From positions 1 to 35,244 of the IMG/VR virus record IMGVR_UViG_3300009551_000087: 35,244 nt of DNA; one strand, written 5' to 3'. Under the pieces are notes generated by a model. That model saw nothing but the letters and a program-made list of their open reading frames with translations, did not search any database and was not told the origin of the DNA. This document shows positions 8,178 to 35,244 of this stretch, one piece after another (the stretch's first letter is position 1; every line of letters begins with the position of its first letter). Source of the stretch: a virus. The position numbers and the translations under genes are program-made.

Positions 8178-8768
8178 ATGAAATACTACGAAGCGCTCGG
8201 GGTCGAAAAGGATGCGAACCTGGCTGAGATCAAAAAGGCGTATCGGAGGCGCTCGCGAGAGTGCCATCCGGACAAAGGGGGCGATGTGAACGATATGATC
8301 CTGGTGAACAAAGCGTATGAGACGCTCTCGAACCCTGAGAAGCGGTCCTATTACGACGCGACGGGAGGCGAGAAGCCACTCACGCAGCTCGAGCACGCTG
8401 CACGCCAGATTTTGGTCCAGTGTGCCCTGCAAGCGGCCGTGGCGAGCGATAGCGACGTGAACATCGTCGCAGCCACGCGCATCGGCATCGAGGGGTTTAT
8501 CCAGCAGTTGACCGGGAACCTACAGGAATCTCGCAAGGGCCACGCGCGCGTCCTGCACCACGCCAAGACGATGACTCACGAGGATGACAGCGGGAGCGAC
8601 CTCGTAACCGTCTTCCACGCGCAGGCGATGAAGATAGCCGAGTCGATCGCGCAGATGGAAATGAACATCAAGGCAGCCGTCGAGGCGCGCAAGATTTTGG
8701 ACAAGTACAAGTGCAGCACGATCGAATCGGCGCACCGCATGATGCAGGGTCTTTTCACGACATATTAA
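8178..8768 (+). CDS. J-domain (DnaJ-like) protein
   Basis: A 196-residue protein. Residues 1-63 are a complete J domain: YYEALGV, AEIKKAYRRRSRECHPDKGG with the HPD motif at 30-32, then VNKAYETLSNPEKRSYYD. There is no G/F region and no zinc-finger domain; the remaining 130 residues are helical and unlike DnaJ substrate-binding domains. J domains stimulate the ATPase of host DnaK, so this protein probably recruits host Hsp70 to a phage target, as known for the viral J protein of SV40 large T antigen and, by other means, for lambda replication. AAAGGG lies 7 bases before the ATG. The target cannot be read from the sequence. Confidence 0.9.
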   Translation: MKYYEALGVEKDANLAEIKKAYRRRSRECHPDKGGDVNDMILVNKAYETLSNPEKRSYYDATGGEKPLTQLEHAARQILVQCALQAAVASDSDVNIVAATRIGIEGFIQQLTGNLQESRKGHARVLHHAKTMTHEDDSGSDLVTVFHAQAMKIAESIAQMEMNIKAAVEARKILDKYKCSTIESAHRMMQGLFTTY

Positions 8769-12388: not shown

Positions 12389-12564
12389 GACTCCTCCTCC
12401 GTGCGGAAGGCTGACCCTGTTTGGCCTTCGCGATCTTTGATCTCGAGCGCGCGGAATTTAAGGATGCGATCGGTGATCGAGAGCTTCTTGTCGAGGTCCG
12501 TTTCATCCTCCGCCCGCTTGAGCAAGTCCTGGATCAATTTGTCCAGCGCCGCCTTGGTTTTCAT
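12385..12564 (-). CDS. 59-aa charged helical protein
   Basis: ATG 12564 opens 59 codons of charged helix (MKTKAALDKLIQDLLKRAED... LSITDRILKFRALEIKDREG...GSAF). AGGG stands about 7 bases before the start, the stop overlaps the next gene's start (ATGA), and the start overlaps the 3' end of the ejection protein gene by 62 bases in another frame. The DRILKFRALEIK...GSAF pattern resembles a small protein encoded near terminase or tail genes in other short-tailed phages, from memory and with unknown function. Confidence 0.7.
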   Translation of the reverse strand: MKTKAALDKLIQDLLKRAEDETDLDKKLSITDRILKFRALEIKDREGQTGSAFRTEEES

Positions 12565-15136
12565 TTTCGACCCTTTGTGTTGGAACGTCAGTCATTTGGT
12601 CGAACGACGCTGCGCGCGTTAGACCCTCAAGAATGGTAGCCGTTTTGTCTATCCACGGCGTTTTGGGATCGCGCCCAGTAACCACCCAACGGGCAATCGT
12701 TGGATGGAGCGCGATGAATCTTGTGATAGCGGCAATCGCCTGCTTATAAAGCCGCTGCTTGAGAGGCTTCTCGAGAATGGCACCCGCGTGCATTCCGGCC
12801 ATACCGACGTCCCGCTCCACCCCGGATTTGAAGGGGTAGATGAACTTGATCGTTTTGGCGAGCTCTCGAAGGTCATCGGCAAAGCCTCCCGGGAACAGTA
12901 GCTCCTGCTGCTTTTTGGTGAAGCCCAGGAGCGCATCCTCGAGGGAGCGGCTGCCTTTGGCGTTGATCGCGTTGATGTTCGCATTGCGTGCCAGCTCCTC
13001 GAGGGCAGCCTGGCGGACCTCGAACATCTGCGGGGATTTTTCCCCGAAGCGGCGCGCCACCTCCATGATGCGCGTTTCCTTCCCCGGGGTGACCACCCAG
13101 CGGTACACCTCCTCCGGGGTGCGGCTCGTGTCGGCGAGCTCGGCGAGCAGGTTCTTTTTGAGGTGATTGTCGAGCGCGCGCTCGGCCGCTTTCAGGTAGG
13201 TAAGGGCCTGCTTGACGTTGCCGTCCTTCAATTGTTCCACGTGAATCGTCCCTTTTCGCGCGGCCAGCATTTCCCCGAGCTCCTTGAGCTCGATGGCGGT
13301 TGCCTTGCCGTGAACGGCTTCGGTCATCGCGCCGGGCCGGTTCAGGTAGTCGAGGAGCTTCATGCCATCGACCACGCGAGTGCCGACCACGTTGACCGTG
13401 CTTGTGCGGTCGAGGATGTTCTGGAGGTCCGCGCTATGCACGCGCTTCCACACCTCCTCGCCGAGCATTTTGCGCATCACGCCGACTTTGGCGGTTTGAC
13501 CGGGCTGCAGCATCATGCTCGCGATCTTCTGGGGGTCTGGCGGCATCCCCGATCGGACGGACTTCACGATCTGCTTGAAGGTGAGGTCATTGAACTTGGC
13601 GATCCCGCGCTTGTACTGGCCATCGACGGTGCGCAAGGCACGGATCGCCGCGGTGGCCGAGGGGTCCTCTTCCGCCGCCTGGATCGCATCATCGACAGCG
13701 TTGGCCAGAAACAAGTGGTCTCCCTTGACCGTGCTCCGCGTGAGCGCCGCAGCGTCGCCCTTCTCTCGCAGGAGGGTGCGGATGCGTTGGGCGTCCTTCA
13801 GGCTGATCTTGTCCCCCTTGGGCAGCTCCACCCCGAATTCCTTGAACAGCATGGCATCCTCCTCCGTGATGTCCGCCTTGCCGAGCGCCTCCATTTCGCG
13901 CGTCATCGCCGAGACGGCCGTCTTGGGCAGCATGCCCTTGATCTGGCGCGCAGCCTCGCGGATCGGCTCCACCGGAACCACCTCGCGCCCGCCGAGCATG
14001 GTGTCGATCTTCCCGTAGGCGTCCTTCGCCCAGGCGGAGAATTGAGTCTTGGCGTTGCGCGTCATCGCCGCCACGTCCTCTGAGAGCGCGCCTGGCGGAT
14101 TCTTATCGATGATGTGCTCGATGTTGGAAATGCGGGTGTCGAGCTGCTTATCGACGAGCTCGCCAGCCTGCTTGACCGTCTCCTCGAGGACCTCGCCGTG
14201 CGCGCGCACCGAATCTTGGACCGCCTTGCCCGCCTTCGCGCCGGAGAAGGCGAAGGTGGGGTCTTTGAGCTGATCCATGAGCTCCGAGATATAGGGGCTG
14301 GGAATACCCTGATCCTCGAGGCGCTTCCTCACCTCGTTCAGCACATACGCCTGGTTGCGGGTGTCCTGAGCGGCGTACTTGCCGGTGAGCTTTTCGGCAT
14401 CGACCTCGATACGAGAGAGTTTTCGAGCATCAGGTGCCATAGACGCATACGGAGGCCGCGCGCCGCCTTTCCAGGCTTGCAGGGTGCGAGCTCGGCTCTC
14501 ATCGGTCGCGCCCGTAAAAGCGCTCGGCAAGCGCCCAGAGAGCACCTTGCGCGCGCCGGCTCCGACGATCTTGCCCGCGCCTTCGCCCCCTGCACCGAGG
14601 AGCGCTTCCTTGCCGGTCTGCTTGGCGAGCTCCTGGGGTGTCTTGGCGAACGTGCCGGCGACTTTCTTGGCCCCCTCTTCGATCAGATGCCCGCCGCCCG
14701 CACCGATCCCCGCCCCTATCACGCCGCCTGCGACCGTGCCTAGTGGACCAAAGGCTGATCCCACCCCGGCTCCGAACTCCGCGCCTGCGCCCGCGCCGGC
14801 CATTTCCGTGCCTTGGGAGGCGATCTCGGCCGAAGTCCCGAGGCCCGAGCTATCGACGTGGATTTGTCGGCCGTCCTTGGTGACGACGAACTTGGGGTGA
14901 CCATCATCGCCCCACTCGCGACGCACGTTCGTCTTGCCGTACACCTTCTGGAGATAGAGCTCTTTCTCCTGATCGGTGTCATGGGCAGCGAGCGCCACCT
15001 TGTCGAGCCAAGAGAGGCCCTCGTTAGGCTCGCCCCAATCCCCGCTCGCCCCATGGCTGCCCTGTACGACGGGATCGTTCTTCCAAGCCCCCGCTGCAGG
15101 AGCCGGTGTCACGACCGCATCATCTTGCCAGCCCAT
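12503..15136 (-). CDS. large internal virion / DNA ejection protein
   Basis: An 877-residue protein of the ejection-protein type. Residues 110-160 form an alanine/glycine zipper (GAGAGAEFGAGVGSAFGPLGTVAGGVIGAGIGAGGG) typical of phage proteins that insert into or cross membranes. The rest is long charged helices. It is the third of three consecutive large helical genes downstream of the tail fibre, the order expected of P22- or T7-like ejection proteins, which leave the capsid ahead of the DNA to build a channel. No peptidoglycan-cutting motif is visible. The assignment rests on composition, size and position. Confidence 0.75.
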   Translation of the reverse strand: MGWQDDAVVTPAPAAGAWKNDPVVQGSHGASGDWGEPNEGLSWLDKVALAAHDTDQEKELYLQKVYGKTNVRREWGDDGHPKFVVTKDGRQIHVDSSGLGTSAEIASQGTEMAGAGAGAEFGAGVGSAFGPLGTVAGGVIGAGIGAGGGHLIEEGAKKVAGTFAKTPQELAKQTGKEALLGAGGEGAGKIVGAGARKVLSGRLPSAFTGATDESRARTLQAWKGGARPPYASMAPDARKLSRIEVDAEKLTGKYAAQDTRNQAYVLNEVRKRLEDQGIPSPYISELMDQLKDPTFAFSGAKAGKAVQDSVRAHGEVLEETVKQAGELVDKQLDTRISNIEHIIDKNPPGALSEDVAAMTRNAKTQFSAWAKDAYGKIDTMLGGREVVPVEPIREAARQIKGMLPKTAVSAMTREMEALGKADITEEDAMLFKEFGVELPKGDKISLKDAQRIRTLLREKGDAAALTRSTVKGDHLFLANAVDDAIQAAEEDPSATAAIRALRTVDGQYKRGIAKFNDLTFKQIVKSVRSGMPPDPQKIASMMLQPGQTAKVGVMRKMLGEEVWKRVHSADLQNILDRTSTVNVVGTRVVDGMKLLDYLNRPGAMTEAVHGKATAIELKELGEMLAARKGTIHVEQLKDGNVKQALTYLKAAERALDNHLKKNLLAELADTSRTPEEVYRWVVTPGKETRIMEVARRFGEKSPQMFEVRQAALEELARNANINAINAKGSRSLEDALLGFTKKQQELLFPGGFADDLRELAKTIKFIYPFKSGVERDVGMAGMHAGAILEKPLKQRLYKQAIAAITRFIALHPTIARWVVTGRDPKTPWIDKTATILEGLTRAASFDQMTDVPTQRVENENQGGAGQIDPGLAQAGGG

Positions 15137-15138
15137 CG

Positions 15139-16260
15139 TTATTTCCTCTTGGTGCGCACAGACGCGTCGGGCGCAATGTACTCTGTGCCAGCCGGCAGCG
15201 CATTGTAGTCAGCGTCATTGGTGACGCGCTTCAAACCGGTGTCCGCAGGCTCCCCGAGCTCTTGCTGCAAGATGCCCTTCACCACGTCGAGCTGCTCGCT
15301 GGCAATGCGATTGTTGGTGAACGTGCGAAGCCCGTCCGCAGCCTGCTCGAGCTTCTGGCGCTGATCCTTGCCCGTGCGGGAGGACATCTTCTCGATCACG
15401 CCGGGCAGCTCGGCCAGGAAGAGGTTATTGGAGGTCTGGAAGCGGTGCGCGGCATCGTCGGTATCGAAGCCCGCCGTGCTCGCCGCCCATTCTCCAATGC
15501 GACGGATGCCACCGGCCCCGCCCGCGAGGAATTTGCTGTCCTTGAGGGACTTCTGCATGGTCTCGATCTGCGCGAGGACGTTTTTGATCGCCTGGTCATT
15601 GCCGGCCTTTTTAGCCGACTGCTTTTCCTTGACCTCGCTCGTTCGCTCCCACTTGACGGCGTTGTCCTGCTCCCACTTCTGCCAGCGATGATGGGCGTCT
15701 TCCGTCTTCAAGGACATTTCCTGAGTCCAGCGCCACTGCTTGAGCGCTTCCTCGTCGATCTTGCCCTGGTAACCGGTTGCGCGCAGCGCGATCTCGAGCG
15801 CCTTTAGGTCCGAGTTGGCCTGGCCCTTATAGACCTGCTGCATTTCCTTATAAATTTGCAGTTGCTGCTTGTACTTATCCATGTACCGCTGGTAGGCATC
15901 GTTATAACGCTGCTTGGCGTCCTCATAGGCTTGCTGGTTGCCCTTGATCAACCCCTGCATCATCCCGTTGGTCGCGCCCAGCATCACGCGCGGGTGAAGC
16001 CCTGCGATCTTCCCCCCGAGGGTCGAAAGACCGATCAGGAGGGGAGCCATGCTCATGAAGCCCTGGCGATTGACCTGCGGGCCTTGAGCCATTTCCTGCT
16101 GAGGGTCGAATTGCGGAATGCTCGCAATGTCCTTACCCACTCCATCGAGATTGGCCTCGTCCTGCTGATAGTTCGAGAGTGCCTGAGAGCCGCTTCCGGA
16201 GAGCGTTGAGAGTGCTCCCTGAAGATCGGAGCTTGCAACGGGTGGAGCTTCATCAGCCAT
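15139..16260 (-). CDS. internal virion / ejection protein
   Basis: A 373-residue protein: a polar N-terminus, a short hydrophobic glycine-containing segment (about residues 68-90, FMSMAPLLIGLSTLGGKIAGL) and long charged helices rich in Gln, Lys and Tyr (NQQAYEDAKQRYNDAYQRY...). It overlaps the preceding ejection protein gene by 8 bases and is followed two bases later by the third. The three genes together resemble the ejection-protein set of short-tailed phages. Function inferred from composition and context. Confidence 0.7.
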   Translation of the reverse strand: MADEAPPVASSDLQGALSTLSGSGSQALSNYQQDEANLDGVGKDIASIPQFDPQQEMAQGPQVNRQGFMSMAPLLIGLSTLGGKIAGLHPRVMLGATNGMMQGLIKGNQQAYEDAKQRYNDAYQRYMDKYKQQLQIYKEMQQVYKGQANSDLKALEIALRATGYQGKIDEEALKQWRWTQEMSLKTEDAHHRWQKWEQDNAVKWERTSEVKEKQSAKKAGNDQAIKNVLAQIETMQKSLKDSKFLAGGAGGIRRIGEWAASTAGFDTDDAAHRFQTSNNLFLAELPGVIEKMSSRTGKDQRQKLEQAADGLRTFTNNRIASEQLDVVKGILQQELGEPADTGLKRVTNDADYNALPAGTEYIAPDASVRTKRK

Positions 16261-23221: not shown

Positions 23222-24232
23222 TCAGATGTTATTGAAGGTATAGCCCGTCACGCGGCCGCAGGTTTTGGGCTTGGTGAGCGCCATTTCCGCGATGGTGAGG
23301 ACTACGCCTTGGTAGCCAATCTGATTGTTGGGGATCAGCGAGTGGAACCCCGAGAACGCGAAAGCCGCCTTCTCATGCACGTACAGATTGACATAGTTGG
23401 TGTTGATCACATACATCAACCCTTCCGGGCAGTACGGATCAGCGAACACCGGAACGCCTGCGACGTCGAGCGCGCGGAAAGCCGACCGCGGCCGATCGTT
23501 ATCCGCATCGAACCCCTTGCCGGGCTGAATCTGATAGGACTCGGAGCCGACGAAATCTTGCGCGAGCTTGCTCCACGTGCCGAAGCCCATCACGGCAAAG
23601 GAGGGCATTTCCGCGCCCGCTTTCTGCACACCAGCGAGGTATTGCAGCACCGTCGATCGAGTGGGAGCCACCGAGCCCGCGGCGTACACCTTGGATTGGA
23701 ACCAAGTGTTCGAGTTGCGGTTGATGTTACCGTAGGTAACCAGGTTGGTCCCGTCATCGATCGCACCGGGGAAGCCGATGATGTTCTGATTGTCCGTGTA
23801 GTTATTGAACAACGCATTGGACAGGAAATCGACCATGTTATTGGTCGAGTCGTTCATGCGCGCTTCGATCAGCGGAACCACCGCATGATCCATCTGCAGG
23901 GCGCCTTCCATGCCGAGGAAGAGGATGGGGGTGATCAATCCCTTTAGATTGAATTCACCGAGAGACGCGCCTTGCTGCGCGGTGGGCTGCTGGAAAGAGC
24001 CCGAGAAGTTCGTGGTCTGAGTCGTGACGAACGGCTGGCCCTGAACCGGGATCGAAATGGAGCTCACACCACCGGTCGCCGGCTGCGAGTTGGCCATCAG
24101 GGATGCGATCGTGGGAGACGCATTGTAAATTTGCACGACCATCTTCGGGATGAACGCGCGGCGAGTGACAGCGGTAAGTTCGTTTGCGATCGAACCTGCT
24201 GCTGGCACGATGCCTTGGCCTAAAACCGGCAT
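23222..24232 (-). CDS. major capsid protein
   Basis: A 336-residue protein of the HK97-like major capsid class found in short-tailed phages. Near the N-terminus it has a helix of the type ELTAVTRRAFIPKMVVQIYNASPTIASLM, and then the patterned strands VSSISIPVQGQPFVTTQTTNFSGSF, ALQMDHAVVPLIEARMNDSTNNMVDFLSNALFNNY and the P-domain-like AGVPVFADPYCPEGLMYVINTNYVNLYVHEKAAFAF typical of capsid proteins. It lies directly after the scaffold-like gene. GGAG stands 8 bases before ATG 24232. It would form the icosahedral shell. Confidence 0.85.
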   Translation of the reverse strand: MPVLGQGIVPAAGSIANELTAVTRRAFIPKMVVQIYNASPTIASLMANSQPATGGVSSISIPVQGQPFVTTQTTNFSGSFQQPTAQQGASLGEFNLKGLITPILFLGMEGALQMDHAVVPLIEARMNDSTNNMVDFLSNALFNNYTDNQNIIGFPGAIDDGTNLVTYGNINRNSNTWFQSKVYAAGSVAPTRSTVLQYLAGVQKAGAEMPSFAVMGFGTWSKLAQDFVGSESYQIQPGKGFDADNDRPRSAFRALDVAGVPVFADPYCPEGLMYVINTNYVNLYVHEKAAFAFSGFHSLIPNNQIGYQGVVLTIAEMALTKPKTCGRVTGYTFNNI

Positions 24233-27786: not shown

Positions 27787-28273
27787 GGCGGGAAGCATGG
27801 CGAGGAGGATGCAATTTCGTCAAGTCCAGCCCCACCGGATAGAGCTTCGGGCCCAGGCGCGTCATGCGCAGGGCATACTCCGGTTGCGCCTGGTGGCGAG
27901 GGACCCCTTGCAAGGGAGTGCCATCCGGCGTGTACACCATGATGGCCCGCCCGGAGCGTCGCTCATCGGGGTCAAACCGGACCTTGCCCTCGAGCACCAT
28001 TAGGATGCTCTTGGAGACCGCAGTCTGCAATCGCCTCGAGACGAATTCCATATCATAGGGCGGGATAAAGACCTGACGGAAATGTTGGCGACTGACGTTG
28101 CAAGAGTCCATAAACGCCCCGAGCGCCCCCTCCACGTCCATGAGACCGTACAGGGGATTGGTCCTGAATAGTTGGATATATCGTCGAATGTCATCCAAGG
28201 AGAGGATGCCTGGCCCGCGCGCGGGGTTGGGGTTGCGCACGTATCGCATTTGTTCATAGGGAATCCTCCTCAT
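27770..28273 (-). CDS. hypothetical protein between terminase and portal
   Basis: A 167-residue basic protein (pattern MRRIPYEQMRYVRNPNPARGPGILSLDDIRRYIQLFRTNP at the start). The later half contains VRFDPDERRSGRAIMVYTPDGTPLQ. Start overlaps terminase stop (ATGA), and its end overlaps the zinc-motif gene. No family known; location suggests a packaging or head role. Confidence 0.7.
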   Translation of the reverse strand: MRRIPYEQMRYVRNPNPARGPGILSLDDIRRYIQLFRTNPLYGLMDVEGALGAFMDSCNVSRQHFRQVFIPPYDMEFVSRRLQTAVSKSILMVLEGKVRFDPDERRSGRAIMVYTPDGTPLQGVPRHQAQPEYALRMTRLGPKLYPVGLDLTKLHPPRHASRHGHHP

Positions 28274-30084
28274 GGCTTGAATCCTATCTGTTTGAACAAA
28301 TCTTGAACGAGCCGAGAGGTCATATTATTGGACGAAGCCTTCCTCTGCTGCGACCTGACCTGATCACGAACCTCTTCCTTCTCGTACCAATGACCCAGGA
28401 TTTGAAGCTTGACCATCAGCATTTCAGACCATGCGGTCACCGCCAAGGATGCCGCGGACACCCGATCGTCCTTGGTGCGAGAGGAGGCTTCGGGAGCCGA
28501 GCCGTCCTCGCGCGTGATGCCTTTCATTTCGTTGACGAGCTCGTAGCTCACAGGCACAGCAATGCCGCGCTCGAAGTAGCTTCGATAGGTCCCCATGGCT
28601 CGCTCCTTGGAAGAGAGGGACGTCTTCCAGTGCATCGCGTTGGCCTGCCCTGAGATTTGATCCACCTGCTTGTAGAGGAAGTTCCTCATGTTGCGCAGCA
28701 CGTTGAAGACGGAGACCTGATCGGAGGGGGTTTTGCGAAAAAGCGCAACCTTGCGCAGATTCCTCACCTCGTTGAAAACCGCCTCACCGGGCCCGGTGAT
28801 CTCGAGGTTCACCAGGCACGGGTCATACAGGCCCGCCAGATAGCACATGGCCCACGCGCACCCATAGGTGGCAAGGTCCGCATCGCAGAATTCGGCGACC
28901 TGCACCACCTTATCCCCGTAGCAGCGCCACACTGAAATGCTGTGATTATCGTGCTGCGACGAGGAGCCGTAAGCCGGGTCGCACCCGAGCACATACTGCG
29001 TGGTGCCAAGAGGCTGAGGCCCTTCCCAGATTTTGAGCGTCGCGAGGCGCTTGTTGGACACCACCACCTGCGTGTCCCAGAAGTTAGCCAAAAATTCCAT
29101 GCGGTAGTAGCTCGGCTCGTCGGCCGACTTGGTGCGCTTGATCGCATCGGATATCGAGCGGGTGCTGAAAAACTGCGTGCCGGTCGCAAGAAAGGCGTGG
29201 TTTTCGGTGGCGGGAAACTCCTGCTGCACCGTGTCGATATCGCCCGCATTGTCAGCAATCTTCCAGCGGTACCAGGCGATCTGCTCGTCATCGACTTGCA
29301 CGCCATAGAGGAGCTTGACATCGCGCACCCAGGACTTTTCCTCCGGGGTCATGCGGCCGCTTTTACCCCAGAAGCTCTGCCACTCCATGCTTCCGCGCTT
29401 CAGTCGATAATTCTCGTTGGCCCAGAAGGAGACGAAGATCGGGACCTGCGTCACCGATTTCTTAGCCTCCTCCCACATGTCATAGAACAGGTTGAATCCT
29501 CTGGCGGTGGACTCCCAGTGATAGAAACGAATCGGATTAGTTTCGGCAAGCGCAGAGCGCAAGGATACTATGCCCTCCTGATCTCCCCAGGAAGACATCT
29601 CCGTAGCGTGCAGGAATGCGAGCGCAGAGGATCGCCCTAAGCTACCTGAAGATTTTTTGGCTGTGGTACCCGCCACCTTGAACTGCAAACGAGAGCCGTT
29701 TCCGAAAACCATGTGGTGACGGTTATGGCTCGTGATGTTCTGCCGCCAATGATTGGGTAAACCTCCGTGGTACATCGTCAAGCTCTGCCTGAATTGCTCT
29801 CGAGCTCCGTCCTCATGCACCACCAGGGAGCCTGAGAGAGCGTCGTTCCTGAACATCCAATAAAGGTCGAATGCAAGGCTGATCGTTGAGATACCGATCT
29901 GGCGGCATTTCAAAGTGACGAAGTTGCGCTTGCCGTCCTCGAGTCCCTTGACGATCTCTTTCATGACCCAACGCTGGGTTCCGAGCATGTTCTGCTCGGA
30001 CAAATTCATGATGCCGCACTCCTTGGAATCGATGCGAAGCGCGCTACAGAATTGCATGAAATGACTTAAATCAAACTTGCTCAT
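28270..30084 (-). CDS. terL: terminase large subunit
   Basis: A 604-residue packaging motor. Motif I is LKCRQIGIST (residues 58-67, the CRQ-x-G-x-S/T type of Walker A), the Walker B-like region is FLHATEMSSW (157-166), and WESTARG (190-196) is the coupling motif. The nuclease domain has GCDPAYG (D369), the acidic LEITGPG (E428) and DDRVSAASLAV at the third acidic position. The protein would pump DNA into the capsid through the portal encoded downstream and cut it. Starts and stops overlap neighbouring genes by 4 bases. Confidence 0.93.
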   Translation of the reverse strand: MSKFDLSHFMQFCSALRIDSKECGIMNLSEQNMLGTQRWVMKEIVKGLEDGKRNFVTLKCRQIGISTISLAFDLYWMFRNDALSGSLVVHEDGAREQFRQSLTMYHGGLPNHWRQNITSHNRHHMVFGNGSRLQFKVAGTTAKKSSGSLGRSSALAFLHATEMSSWGDQEGIVSLRSALAETNPIRFYHWESTARGFNLFYDMWEEAKKSVTQVPIFVSFWANENYRLKRGSMEWQSFWGKSGRMTPEEKSWVRDVKLLYGVQVDDEQIAWYRWKIADNAGDIDTVQQEFPATENHAFLATGTQFFSTRSISDAIKRTKSADEPSYYRMEFLANFWDTQVVVSNKRLATLKIWEGPQPLGTTQYVLGCDPAYGSSSQHDNHSISVWRCYGDKVVQVAEFCDADLATYGCAWAMCYLAGLYDPCLVNLEITGPGEAVFNEVRNLRKVALFRKTPSDQVSVFNVLRNMRNFLYKQVDQISGQANAMHWKTSLSSKERAMGTYRSYFERGIAVPVSYELVNEMKGITREDGSAPEASSRTKDDRVSAASLAVTAWSEMLMVKLQILGHWYEKEEVRDQVRSQQRKASSNNMTSRLVQDLFKQIGFKP

Positions 30085-31373
30085 TGACTGGTGCCTGTCA
30101 AACGACGGCGCATTGGGTTCACGCCTGGCACGCTAGGCTGAGGTCCTAAGCTGATCGTGATGACCAAGTGAGCTTGAGGGGTAACGGGAGTATCGGGAGC
30201 GGGAGACTGGCTGACGACGGTTCCCAGAGGGGAGACCGGATCGTAGAGGTACCGCAAATCATCGACGATCAGATTGGCAGACTCGAGCACAGCCACTCCG
30301 GTTTCCACCGAGGTTCCCAGGACATTAGGGGTGAGGCTCGAGCTGATCACAAGGTCGAGAGACGAGCCTGTGGAGACCAGGGTTCCCGGAACCACCGACT
30401 GGTTGAGGACCAGGCCCGAGTTGACCCCATCGATATAACGATAGTCTGTGCCGGTGAGACCCACCACAGAGCGATCCACATCGGCGATATCTTGCGAGAT
30501 GCCAATCAAATTGGGAACGAGGATTCCACCGGCTCCCAGGGAAAGGGTGATTTCTACAGCGCCTCCCGGGACCAAGGCAGTCCCTGCGGGCGGGAACTGT
30601 GCCGCAACCAAACCGTTGGCGACCGTGTTGCTCTGCGAGGTATTGATCGGCGTGCCGACGACTAACCCCGCGGCCTGGATGGCGCTCGTTGCCGAAGCCT
30701 GGCTCATCCCCACGACGTTGGGGACGTTGACGGTGGAGGGAGGGTCCTGGAAAGGCAGCGTGACATAGGCGCTGAGCTTGGTGCCATCTTGCGCCGCGGC
30801 ATCGACGGAGGTGACGTTGGTGCCTGCGCCGCTGCTGGCCGTCACCTTGATGACCCCCTGGCCGGTCATGGTCACATCGGAGATCGTAGGAGACGGCGTG
30901 CCGGTACCCTGCACGTTTTTGAACCGCACCTCATCGCCCAACTGCAAATCTGGCAAGGAAGCGGCTCGGCTCGAGGGATCGCCTAAATTTTGCTGCGTGA
31001 TCGCAAACGCAGATTCCCCGGTCTTTGAGGCAATGGTGGTCGTGATGGCATTGGTCTGCACACCCCCGGCCGTGGTGACATAGATCGAGACGGGCTGGGT
31101 GAGCTTCAGTCCCGAGGTGTCGAGCGTCGCCGAGGTGATCGAAGTGGTGCCTTCGGAGCTCACCGGAACGGTGAGAAGGTTTCCGCCCTGAGAGACCGTG
31201 ATCGTGTTACCAGAGGCCGAGAAATTGGTCCCGGTCAGATTGAGCGCAGCCCCATCGGTCGGCGTCCCGACAGAGGTCAACGTGGGAGACGTCGAGCCGG
31301 TCGGGGTGAGCCGATCGAAGGCCACCTTGGTCGTGGCGACCGTCAGGCGGTCAAAGACAACGATCTCGCTCAT
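30081..31373 (-). CDS. virion protein with IPT-like and three PASTA-like repeats
   Basis: A 430-residue protein. Residues 29-113 look like an IPT/TIG or Ig-like domain (PTLTSVGTPTDGAALNLTGTNFSASGNTITVSQGG). From 215 come three PASTA-like repeats at about 215-280 (VPNVVGMSQASATSAIQAAGLVVG), 285-345 (VPNLIGISQDIADVDRSV) and 348-410 (TPNVLGTSVETGVAVLESANLIV). PASTA modules in bacteria bind peptidoglycan muropeptides. In a phage they could hold the virion at the cell wall or extend a fibre. Placed among surface proteins upstream of the terminase, it overlaps both neighbours by 4 bases. Confidence 0.72.
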   Translation of the reverse strand: MSEIVVFDRLTVATTKVAFDRLTPTGSTSPTLTSVGTPTDGAALNLTGTNFSASGNTITVSQGGNLLTVPVSSEGTTSITSATLDTSGLKLTQPVSIYVTTAGGVQTNAITTTIASKTGESAFAITQQNLGDPSSRAASLPDLQLGDEVRFKNVQGTGTPSPTISDVTMTGQGVIKVTASSGAGTNVTSVDAAAQDGTKLSAYVTLPFQDPPSTVNVPNVVGMSQASATSAIQAAGLVVGTPINTSQSNTVANGLVAAQFPPAGTALVPGGAVEITLSLGAGGILVPNLIGISQDIADVDRSVVGLTGTDYRYIDGVNSGLVLNQSVVPGTLVSTGSSLDLVISSSLTPNVLGTSVETGVAVLESANLIVDDLRYLYDPVSPLGTVVSQSPAPDTPVTPQAHLVITISLGPQPSVPGVNPMRRRLTGTSQ

Positions 31374-32680
31374 GAGTAGCTCGGCGTGATCTGGTAGCCC
31401 GTGGCGAGTGTGGCTGCCTTACTGGCGTTACCCTTCCAGGAGTAGAACACCACATCGGAGGGTGTGGCAGGGTTGAGCACACTCGCATCCGCAAGCGTCT
31501 TGCTCCAGGAGAAGTTTCCGCTGCCATCGGTGGTGCCGGCGTTGCCCGAATCGAAGGCCGTGACCAGCACGCTTGTGGTGGGATAGACCACCCACGTGAT
31601 CCCCGAGAGGCCCGATTGGTTGGCGCTGCCGGCGATGTTAGCGAGCTGAATCGTGAAGGACGCAACGCTTCCACGCTGAACGACGAAGCCCGAGGAGTTG
31701 GTGTTGCTCGCGCTGTCGGTAGCGAACACGAATAGGTTCGTGAACCAGCCGAAGGTGGATCCCGGGAAGGCCCCCATGGTGATGGTGGTGGAGGTCTGGG
31801 AGCTGATCGGCCAGTTGACCGCGCCGGCATCGGCAGGGTTGTTCGACGGGGAGAGCTTGACGGAGCTCCACGATGCGCCGCTCTTGGTGCCGGTCAGCAC
31901 GATGCCCGTGGTGCCGTTGATGATCGGCGTCGAGCCGCTAGATATCGAGGACAACAGCACGCCAGCGCCGACTTCCTTGAACACGTTGAAAATCCAAAGT
32001 CCCGAGGAGTAGGTAGGGGTCTGCTCGTTGACGGGGTTTCCGGTAGCGCCTGCCACCGTCAAGTCCTTGGTGAGTGTCGAGAGCGACATGGATCGACCGC
32101 CAGAGGGGTCGGTCACGCGATACTGAGACGCGAATGGATTGGCCCACCCTGAAGCGCCGCTTTTGTTGGTCCACACGTTGTTCAGGAGGCTTGAGAACAC
32201 CACATGCGCCATGGTGCTGGCCGCGACCGTAGTGCGGCCCCCTGTGGCAGTGATATCTCCAGGAGTCACCGGCGCATTGAAAGTATGGAACTGCTCAGGA
32301 GAGTCTACCGAAACGAGGTTGGTCGAGACGGTGGGCGGGAAAATTTCCAGCATCATCTGCATCACGACGGTGCTCGAGAGCACGGAGTTGATGCCGATAT
32401 CTCCGGACATCGTGCCGTTGTACTGGCAGGTAAAGACCGCCACCGTATGCGAGCCGGTTTGCCTTTGCGTAGGCGTGTTCCAACTCTGCCCGCCTGTCTT
32501 GGCGGGGTCCATGACGATCGAGTTTGAGCCGCGCCGCGCGACGGTCAGGACGAACCAAGCCCCCGAGGGCGGGGTCACGGCATTGATCTGCGCAGCCGTG
32601 ATGAACCGCTCCTGGCTATCGTATAGCGAGGTGTTGTCGGGTGGATTGGTGACGACTGCAAAAGTAGTAAAGCCACTCAT
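31370..32680 (-). CDS. beta-rich surface protein of unknown fold
   Basis: A 436-residue protein. The N-terminal part (FTTFAVVTNPPDNTSLYDSQERFITAAQINAVTPPSGAWFVLTVARRGSN) has jelly-roll character; the middle and C-terminal parts have Ig/FN3-like strands (GIVLTGTKSGASWSSVKLSPSNNPADAGAVNWPISSQTSTTITMGAFPG...). Nothing enzymatic is visible. It belongs with the two adjacent beta-rich genes in a cluster of likely adhesins. It overlaps both neighbours by 4 bases. Confidence 0.6.
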   Translation of the reverse strand: MSGFTTFAVVTNPPDNTSLYDSQERFITAAQINAVTPPSGAWFVLTVARRGSNSIVMDPAKTGGQSWNTPTQRQTGSHTVAVFTCQYNGTMSGDIGINSVLSSTVVMQMMLEIFPPTVSTNLVSVDSPEQFHTFNAPVTPGDITATGGRTTVAASTMAHVVFSSLLNNVWTNKSGASGWANPFASQYRVTDPSGGRSMSLSTLTKDLTVAGATGNPVNEQTPTYSSGLWIFNVFKEVGAGVLLSSISSGSTPIINGTTGIVLTGTKSGASWSSVKLSPSNNPADAGAVNWPISSQTSTTITMGAFPGSTFGWFTNLFVFATDSASNTNSSGFVVQRGSVASFTIQLANIAGSANQSGLSGITWVVYPTTSVLVTAFDSGNAGTTDGSGNFSWSKTLADASVLNPATPSDVVFYSWKGNASKAATLATGYQITPSYS

Positions 32681-34542
32681 GGGATACCGCTCGGCTTTTG
32701 AATGTGAGTTAGGGGATTGCCGTTGATGACTTGCAGCACGGAATTCCAGTTACCTGGATTGACGCCCGTGTTGGTTCCGGTGCCAGGGTAAGCGGGTACC
32801 GGAGGATTGGTCGCTCCGATATCCAATATGACCCATTTCATGTGGCTCTGATGCAAGACTTGATCGCACCATTGGAATACGGTCATGGGAGTGGGTGGGC
32901 CGTACTTGGCAGCCGTGATATCGGGAGCCTGAGTGTCAGAGGAGGAGCCCATCACGCCGCGAAGGTCAGGCCCCGTGAAAGAGGCGTTTGGCGTAAACCC
33001 TGGCCAGACGATCTGGCTTTGCGCCGCGCCGATCATCGCCGCTTGTCCCCATCCTAGGTGACCGGGGATGGTATCGGGACTTCCCATGATGGCGCGGTTA
33101 TTAGCCGCATAGGTGGTCAGGGTCTGAGTCTGCGCCTGATTGTCCGTGAAATTGATGTTGCACATGAACAAGGTGTTGGGGAAGGCCACCTGGCACGCGC
33201 TGATCAGCCGCTCGTACTGAGTGACGATGCCGTTTCCGTTGTATGTGCTGCCCGGGTCGATCGCGATCGAGGTTTCCCCGAAGCTGATTTGCTCCACGAA
33301 CGGGTCCTGATCGACGGTCAATCCGGTGGCGGGGTTCACCGCGGCCGCAAGGGCCTGGAAAACCCCGATACACCAATCCATTTCCTTCTGGTTCCAAAAT
33401 GCGATCACGGTCTCGAGACCACCGTTAGCGCTCCACCAGCCGAATTTTCCGGCAGTCGGTGAGGCGCTATAGGTATTGTTATTGTAGACCTCAGAGGGCA
33501 GAAGGTCCGCATAGTCATTGCCGCTGCCGAAAATCTGCGGCATGAGCTGGATGTGCAGACGCTTGCCGGCCGCGCGCATCTTGTTGAGATCGCGGAAAAT
33601 CTTCGAGAAGTCATACGGCGCGTTGCCGAAGCACCCCATCGTGTAGAACATCTCGATCCCGAGCACGTTGACACCGCTGTTTATGACGGTGTTCTGCTCT
33701 TGAATCTGATTGGTGAGGTGGCGATCGTTCGGGAAGGTGATGTTATTGCTTGCGCCGTAGTGGCCCGGGTTCCACTTCACTCCGGTGGTGGAAGGGACTT
33801 GGATGTTGACCGTGGCCTGAGTGTTTCCGGTGGAGGGGTTGATATTCCCGGAGAGCGCAGTCACAGAGACTATCGAGAGTAGTCCGCTCGAGTTGGTGAG
33901 GACCTGTCCCGCGGTCGATTGAATGAACTGAGTCCCGTTGGAGCCTGCCGGAAAGGTGAGAAATCCGTTCCCGGGAGAGGGCATGCCCTGGTTGAAGTTT
34001 GAGAACTGCCACGTCACGGTGCAGCCAGGGGAGGCGGAGCCGGCTCCGGAGAGCGTGACCGCCACGGAGATCGGCTGTCCTTCTTGGACATTCAGGCTTG
34101 TGACGCCGAGGGTGACAGTACCCGGTGCAAGCTGCTGCGAGGTGGGAACCGTGGTGACAGTGACGATCTTCGAGTAGCTCGAGGACAGGCCCGCATAGTT
34201 GTGGTTTTTGATGCGAAAGTCATAGGCGCTGTTCGGTGAGAGTCCAGTGACGACAGCGGAAACGCCCTGCCCTGCGTTATAGGGAATGAGACCAAACACA
34301 GTCCATTGCCCGAGCGTCGAAGGCGAATACTCCACCTGAGTATCGAGGATTCCCGAGTCCGGGTCCTGTCCGTTGACCCAGTTGAGCGTCACCTGGCTGA
34401 CGTCTGGCACGGGAGGGGAGGTGGGAAAATCCGACGTGCCTCCCAGGGCCGGGGTCGTGGGCGGGGTCGTGTCTGGCGTGCGCGTCGCCCGCTGTCCCGC
34501 GACGATCGGGACCTTGTAAGTGGTCGCGATGATTTGCTTCAT
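32677..34542 (-). CDS. FN3/Ig and TIM-barrel-like virion protein
   Basis: A 621-residue protein from ATG 34542, overlapping the stop of the 57-residue gene (ATGA); the in-frame extension to 34560 adds only six residues. A fibronectin type III domain spans about 27-131 (VTLNWVNGQDPDSGILDTQVEY... AYDFRIKNHNYAGLSSSYSK), an Ig-like domain about 139-250, and residues 255-621 form an alpha/beta domain like a glycoside-hydrolase barrel: NVLGIEMFY, FRDLNKMRAAGKRLHIQLMPQIF, ISFGETSIAI (E417 and E423 are candidate acids) and HMKWVILDIG. It may bind or cut a surface polysaccharide. Enzymatic activity is not shown. Confidence 0.68.
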   Translation of the reverse strand: MKQIIATTYKVPIVAGQRATRTPDTTPPTTPALGGTSDFPTSPPVPDVSQVTLNWVNGQDPDSGILDTQVEYSPSTLGQWTVFGLIPYNAGQGVSAVVTGLSPNSAYDFRIKNHNYAGLSSSYSKIVTVTTVPTSQQLAPGTVTLGVTSLNVQEGQPISVAVTLSGAGSASPGCTVTWQFSNFNQGMPSPGNGFLTFPAGSNGTQFIQSTAGQVLTNSSGLLSIVSVTALSGNINPSTGNTQATVNIQVPSTTGVKWNPGHYGASNNITFPNDRHLTNQIQEQNTVINSGVNVLGIEMFYTMGCFGNAPYDFSKIFRDLNKMRAAGKRLHIQLMPQIFGSGNDYADLLPSEVYNNNTYSASPTAGKFGWWSANGGLETVIAFWNQKEMDWCIGVFQALAAAVNPATGLTVDQDPFVEQISFGETSIAIDPGSTYNGNGIVTQYERLISACQVAFPNTLFMCNINFTDNQAQTQTLTTYAANNRAIMGSPDTIPGHLGWGQAAMIGAAQSQIVWPGFTPNASFTGPDLRGVMGSSSDTQAPDITAAKYGPPTPMTVFQWCDQVLHQSHMKWVILDIGATNPPVPAYPGTGTNTGVNPGNWNSVLQVINGNPLTHIQKPSGIP

Positions 34543-34712
34543 GTGAAGAGGCGATCCCACGCCGCGGCGAGCGCGAGCAGGATCAAGCTTGCGAAGCGTA
34601 CCCGTGGGCGGCGCAGGACTCGCCCGCCACCGATGCCGGGAACGGTGTCGAAGTCAAACGCGCTCGTTGAAAATGAGTTTTCGTCGAACGCGGCCGCAGC
34701 GAACGAGGCCAT
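34539..34712 (-). CDS. 57-aa protein with FD-rich head and C-terminal membrane span
   Basis: ATG 34712 opens 57 codons: MASFAAAAFDENSFSTSAFD with an AFD repeat pattern seen in small phage tail or fibre accessory proteins, then glycines, a basic patch RRPRVR and a hydrophobic segment (FASLILLALAAAW) near the end. It starts directly after the stop of the upstream gene and its stop overlaps the next start (ATGA), which supports that it is real. The role is unknown. Confidence 0.65.
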   Translation of the reverse strand: MASFAAAAFDENSFSTSAFDFDTVPGIGGGRVLRRPRVRFASLILLALAAAWDRLFT

Positions 34713-35244
34713 TTATGCACCCCTCCAGAGGTCACCCACGACACCGGTGCCGATGACACCATGAGAATTCATCTGCGTGGTGTTGGCGGCGATCGGCGTG
34801 GAGCTCGCGGCCGAGAGCACGCCGGCCGCGATCTCCGTCACGGCATCGGTGGCGAGCGCCGAGGCGGTCAAGGAGTTGGCCGCGAGGTCACCGGCTGCGA
34901 TCGTCGAGGGGACTTTTCCGCTGGCGACGTTGACCTGTCCAGCGGCGGTACCGACTGAGACTTTCACGCCGTTGGCCGCATCGACGGTGGGCAATCCGCC
35001 GTTGGCCGCGGCCGCGGCGTTGGGCAGCGCGGTCATGCCGGCGCGCACCGAGTCGTACAAGTCCACCGCGGTCACGATGATCTTCAGGGTGTGGGTCTCC
35101 ATGTTGGCCGCACCGTTGAAGGTGATATTGCACTCGCCGGCCGCGGCGATGCAGGCGTTGGGGATATCGAAGCGGTACTGACCTGGTGCGTTGGTCGAAC
35201 TGATCTCCACGAATCCGCCCGAGGAGTACGCGCCGCCCACGGTC
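34713..35244 (-). CDS. phage structural protein, 5' end cut by the window
   Basis: At least 176 residues; the N-terminus lies beyond the right edge, so the apparent start near 35240 is not the true one. The visible start (GGAYSSGGFVEISSTNAPGQYRFDIPNACIAAAGECNITFNGAANMETHTLKIIV) has the pattern common in phage virion proteins of short-tailed and siphovirus genomes: W/F-V-E--ATN-PG-Y-F-IPNA....GA..V.....GAANM....L.I. The rest is an Ala-rich region with repeated short helices. It seems a late structural or fibre-associated protein. It is followed directly by the 57-residue gene. Confidence 0.65.
   Translation of the reverse strand, partial: TVGGAYSSGGFVEISSTNAPGQYRFDIPNACIAAAGECNITFNGAANMETHTLKIIVTAVDLYDSVRAGMTALPNAAAAANGGLPTVDAANGVKVSVGTAAGQVNVASGKVPSTIAAGDLAANSLTASALATDAVTEIAAGVLSAASSTPIAANTTQMNSHGVIGTGVVGDLWRGA

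Follow-up and report, generated by a model that had tools for sequence, protein, structure and literature searches.

The PASTA module is otherwise known from bacterial proteins that sense the cell wall. PknB binds DAP muropeptides through its extracytoplasmic PASTA array (PMC3145798), B. subtilis PrkC requires Arg500 to recognise muropeptides and the PASTA arrays of kinases are linear (both PMC3601408), and the PASTA domain of PonA2 is described as binding neither muropeptides nor beta-lactams (PMC6151718). Because of the PonA2 case, the PASTA fold alone is no proof of function. Here we describe a 430-aa protein with three PASTA repeats that is encoded in a linear virus record of 35,244 bases (IMG/VR record IMGVR_UViG_3300009551_000087); this whole stretch is hereafter called the window.

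The gene of the 430-aa protein (30081..31373, minus strand) is present as originally described and overlaps the gene on each side by 4 bases. The protein matches the Pfam PASTA family PF03793 with 89.8 bits (E = 1.1e-25) in three stretches. When scored one by one, all three copies exceed the curated cut-off of 23.2 bits: copy 1 (residues 216-280; 30534..30728, minus strand) reaches 55.4 bits, copy 2 (residues 285-345; 30339..30521, minus strand) 26.1 bits and copy 3 (residues 348-410; 30144..30332, minus strand) 31.0 bits. The scores of the whole protein and of each copy rule out a chance similarity. The nearest solved sequences are the extracellular PASTA domains of Staphylococcus aureus PrkC, with 3py9 matched at 5.2e-7. 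Copies 2 and 3 share 28-30% identity with copy 1, and the copies are therefore not recent duplicates. With 15 aligned sequences, AlphaFold modelled residues ~211-410 confidently (ten-residue pLDDT blocks mostly 82-97, lowest 76; blocks of 87-97 in copy 1), and each copy has the helix and three strands that a PASTA domain requires. A Foldseek search against the PDB gave 26 matches at E ≤0.001, every one a kinase or penicillin-binding protein with PASTA. Individual copies can be superposed on PASTA domains of known structure (3ouv, Z 11.4, 1.4 angstrom over 67 residues; 5e0y, Z 9.5, 1.6 angstrom over 65; 1pyy, Z 8.6, 2.0 angstrom over 57). These matches and superpositions rule out a fold other than PASTA. 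The original prediction had named three PASTA-like repeats and proposed a profile search and a structure prediction as checks; the former returned three copies above the cut-off and the latter the PASTA fold at ~1.4-2 angstrom per domain. The three repeats are genuine PASTA domains.

The remainder of the protein is less certain. The N-terminal part (residues 28-212; 30738..31292, minus strand) is beta-rich. Modelled alone, it is all-beta at low confidence (mean pLDDT 38), and the whole-protein model likewise gives strands only. No Ig family was matched there in Pfam up to E = 10, the single match, at chance level (E = 5.5), being to a non-Ig family; PHROGs gave no family up to E = 10 for this part and none for the whole protein. 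The Ig-like domain that had been proposed to precede the repeats thus retains an all-beta model of low confidence and finds no counterpart among the Pfam Ig families, and it is possible that the N-terminal part is Ig-like. The absence of a signal peptide and of a kinase part, also proposed originally, was borne out. Averaged over 12 residues, Kyte-Doolittle hydropathy peaks at 1.28 within residues 1-40, with no hydrophobic leader, and Pfam gives PASTA alone, without any kinase, transpeptidase or transglycosylase domain. The protein accordingly has neither the kinase domain and transmembrane segment of a PASTA Ser/Thr kinase nor the transpeptidase or transglycosylase domain of a PASTA penicillin-binding protein.

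We further investigated the gene neighbourhood, all on the minus strand. The gene order runs from a 627-aa protein (32677..34560) through a 436-aa protein (31370..32680) and the PASTA protein to the terminase large subunit (28270..30084), and is followed by portal and capsid genes. These four genes form a chain with 4-base overlaps, terminase last. The terminase was identified by phrog_2 (1.7e-10) and shares 45% identity with the protein annotated as terminase in MW202753. The 436-aa protein is of low charge (Lys+Arg 3.9%) and without a family in Pfam or PHROGs. The 627-aa protein is tailspike-like by eye and carries a fibronectin-III-like domain (PF25059 at 7.3e-6, below the curated cut-off); a search for its relatives found only the same contig. 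Before this chain lies the end of a fibre-like gene (34713..35244), cut by the window edge. A second contig, L001, is 99.98% identical to the window over 12,605 bases and is the only one in which a close whole-protein relative of the PASTA protein was found (the gene is identical). It reaches 1,728 bases past the window; this extra stretch has two complete ORFs and supplies the start of the fibre-like gene, which is whole at L001:1538-2260. The gene chain, together with the PF03793 match and the model, agrees with the original placement of the array among fibre-like late genes, and position, composition and architecture point to a virion protein. Elsewhere in the window, a phage DnaJ-domain protein (8178-8768, plus strand; PF00226 at 5.3e-19) is encoded near YqaJ and RecT genes, and the extreme left end (1-80) holds a hairpin with a 27-base perfect arm (z -9.2), which may be real or may stem from fold-back during assembly of the reads.

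We then sought relatives of the phage itself. The terminase has six further relatives at 52-60% identity, and none of these six records, searched whole, holds a PASTA domain; four of them are fragments of 5-6 kb. No terminase relatives were found in genome_contigs. The major head protein (23222..24232, minus strand; phrog_9953 at 5e-29) served as the clade marker and belongs to a common environmental clade, with at least 564 relatives among at least 599 stretches. Of 50 clade records searched whole, a single one has PASTA, and the other 49 are without it. This record, L200 (IMG/VR 3300035696_000115), has a major head protein 66% identical and a terminase 51% identical to those of the window. 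Its 470-aa protein (L200:3155-4567) resembles the window protein in having three PASTA copies and in immediately preceding the terminase, whose gene its own overlaps by 4 bases as in the window, but differs in that a recognisable He_PIG Ig domain (6.9e-7) precedes the copies, in an N-terminus without significant BLAST similarity, and in an identity of 29% over the repeats. Upstream, one gene encodes a cellulase-family domain (4.8e-8) and another, of fibre type (L200:2510-3151), is akin to that of the window (1.1e-6). Such divergence is as expected of a contact protein that evolves fast. Other clade members have unrelated genes in this slot: in L176, L252, L180, L219, L229 and L177, the ORF preceding the terminase is by eye glycosyltransferase-like, radical-SAM-like or short. 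The slot before the terminase is thus variable, PASTA proteins filling it in two members of the clade.

These results suggest, with a probability of roughly 0.55, that the 430-aa protein belongs to the exterior of a tailed phage, docked by its N-terminus and contacting the host surface with an exposed PASTA string. The N-terminal part would probably dock to the virion or a fibre, the three PASTA domains would form an exposed string on the particle, and this string would take part in host-surface contact, by analogy with the Ig-like and fibronectin-III strings of other phages. Its presence in the particle, the exposure of its PASTA end and binding to some partner on the cell are our inferences. 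What supports this reading is the fold of the repeats, the chain of overlapping genes, the gene with three PASTA copies at the syntenic place in L200 and the grafts on other virion proteins described below. It is weakened by the rarity of PASTA among relatives (1/50 clade records and 0/6 other terminase-related records) and by a docking part for which Pfam and PHROGs give no recognised family and AlphaFold no confident model.

It was then asked how widely PASTA occurs in viral contigs. Census seeds came from two DNA patterns run over viral contigs, which select canonical VPNV[VI]G starts; the scan with the second pattern returned at least 120 stretches, and 80 of 120 were taken as loci. A local 10-repeat profile gave PASTA-like matches in 87 of the 115 listed loci; grouped at 60% identity, the corresponding 88 proteins fall into 46 clusters. 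L032, which duplicates the window, and two fragments of L039 were dropped and the window and L200 were added, leaving 45 representatives, of which 43 contain PF03793. Their partner domains include a DUF2612 tail protein (5), a laminin-G-like lectin (4) and an HK97 capsid (1), and their PHROGs labels include structural protein, baseplate wedge subunit, distal tail protein, major head protein and superinfection exclusion. Some of the 45 are probably not phage; L035 and L050 are one contig, with a teneurin/RHS-like protein by eye. Among other architectures, one protein (L036:469-1515, minus strand) combines DUF2510, PASTA and two stretches of Ltp, a host cell surface-exposed lipoprotein family, and two others (L044, by Pfam; L047, by the local profile) combine PASTA with FTFTP repeats and a hedgehog/intein-like C-terminus, both by eye.

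Two of the fusions involve conserved virion proteins. The protein at L048:525-1922 (minus strand) is an HK97-type major capsid protein (2.9e-22) with one C-terminal PASTA domain (3.2e-11), and its named isolate relatives align to residue 390-392, short of PASTA (25 listed of 443 records). Similarly, the relatives of L079 align to its DUF2612 end alone, from residue 496-502 (25 listed of 147 records). Since the listed relatives of both proteins align without the PASTA part, PASTA was probably added to conserved virion proteins. We also noticed that two tail proteins that are close homologues differ in copy number, with two PASTA copies in L102 and one in L132. This variation could be explained if the PASTA domains were an inert, stiff rod that serves only to space the N-terminal domain, or a fibre partner, from the particle, and so could the linear arrays of kinases (PMC3601408) and the 28-30% identity of the window copies to copy 1, which indicates that the fold rather than the surface has been kept. 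In both the window and L200, however, the array is C-terminal and nothing large lies past it to be held out, and we regard a purely spacing role as unlikely. The Ltp stretches of the viral-contig PASTA protein L036 and the superinfection exclusion label among the 45 proteins would also be compatible with a protein outside the virion, made late and active in the infected cell as a host-modifying or exclusion factor. The 430-aa protein, however, lacks a signal peptide or membrane stretch, and its gene is embedded in and coupled to fibre-like genes and the terminase, which makes such a role very improbable.

Part of this distribution is already visible in databases. Several uncultured-phage proteins in BFVD are named 'PASTA', and PASTA in tailed-phage proteins is hence on record as database names; in the open-licence PMC literature searched, no paper describing a phage virion protein with PASTA was found. 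Among isolate phages, seven 'phages' records matched by the repeats at E ≤10 were rejected as evidence of phage PASTA. Four of them were examined (L017-L020, i.e., MT838740, MT836719, OR847153 and MT835987; the remaining three are Listeria records). These four are deposited as phage, but by eye they look like bacterial chromosome with PASTA-kinase loci: three hold a PrkC-type kinase, L017 holds a PASTA fragment at the record edge, PP2C-type or RsgA-type neighbours are present in L017, L019 and L020, and L018 has other cellular genes. Given these kinase loci, the four records are taken as mislabelled or contaminating DNA.

The charge composition bears on what the array might bind. Lys+Arg make up 3.7% of the PASTA protein, within the range of the capsid, tail-type and neighbouring outer proteins of the same phage (2.2-6.9%), and about 12-15% of its enzymes, portal and terminase; since two large proteins without an assigned role (12503-15136 and 15139-16260) also reach about 13%, this composition is supportive only. 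Within the array, copy 1 has no Lys and no Arg, copy 2 has two Arg and copy 3 has one. Among 61 phage-side repeats (unique, >20 bits and ≥50 residues, with L032, L035, L050, L036, L023, L039 and L114 left out), the mean Lys+Arg content is 1.4% and 28 repeats have none. The kinase repeats average 10.6% and none of the 13 is without basic residues, this comparison set comprising just 13 whole or partial repeats of four kinases.

It had been proposed that the phage may have acquired a wall-binding module for attachment. Such an anchor would bind the host wall through its stem peptides or glycan strands, either on attachment or once the outer membrane has been breached. Kinase PASTA domains are the nearest in sequence and fold, and the PknB array binds DAP muropeptides (PMC3145798). 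Against this, copy 1 lacks Lys and Arg, as do 28/61 phage-side repeats, and Arg is scarce in copies 2 and 3 (two and one), although low basic content is general in the outer proteins of this phage; muropeptide binding is also not universal among PASTA domains (PMC6151718). The fusion of PASTA to a phage capsid protein (L048) makes little sense for a wall anchor. The peptidoglycan of Gram-negative bacteria sits beneath an outer membrane, and the host is probably Gram-negative: the window encodes an M15 endolysin (1.3e-6) adjoined, by eye, by holin-like and lipoprotein-like ORFs, lysis genes from which a Gram-negative host is suggested. The five MAG contigs with major head protein relatives in genome_contigs carry mixed labels (two beta-proteobacteria, Balneolaceae, Saccharibacteria and Alphaproteobacteria) and thus point to no clear host. 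Wall binding for attachment was not supported, and an anchoring role appears rather unlikely.

The recurrent addition of PASTA to virion proteins of tailed phages is more interesting than the single protein. It is about an even chance that tailed phages use PASTA generally for display, next to Ig-like and fibronectin-III domains. The module would then have been grafted repeatedly on capsid, baseplate, distal-tail and fibre-type proteins, would have lost its basic residues and would bind, on the host or in its surroundings, a ligand other than muropeptides. A PASTA domain tends by default to be taken for a wall sensor. If phages do use PASTA as a generic surface module, it would be unsafe to read stand-alone PASTA proteins as wall sensors, and phage PASTA arrays would be small testable binders.

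Compared with known systems, the window protein shares family and fold with the PASTA kinases (PrkC/PknB/StkP) and PASTA penicillin-binding proteins, and has three tandem copies as in S. aureus PrkC. In contrast to these proteins, it has no kinase, transpeptidase, membrane segment or signal, contains few basic residues, and is set in a late gene chain. The proteins named 'PASTA_pknB domain containing protein' from uncultured Caudovirales phage (e.g., A0A6J5NDH4) likewise carry PASTA (best Foldseek E = 7.8e-16), a likeness that comes from the fold search and database names and covers 209 aligned columns, i.e., part of the protein. Hoc-type and Ig-like phage decorations are similar in being strings of small domains on a virion-type protein that change fast between relatives (PMC10385173); they have the Ig fold, whereas the window protein, a probable virion protein judging from its genomic setting, has the PASTA fold.
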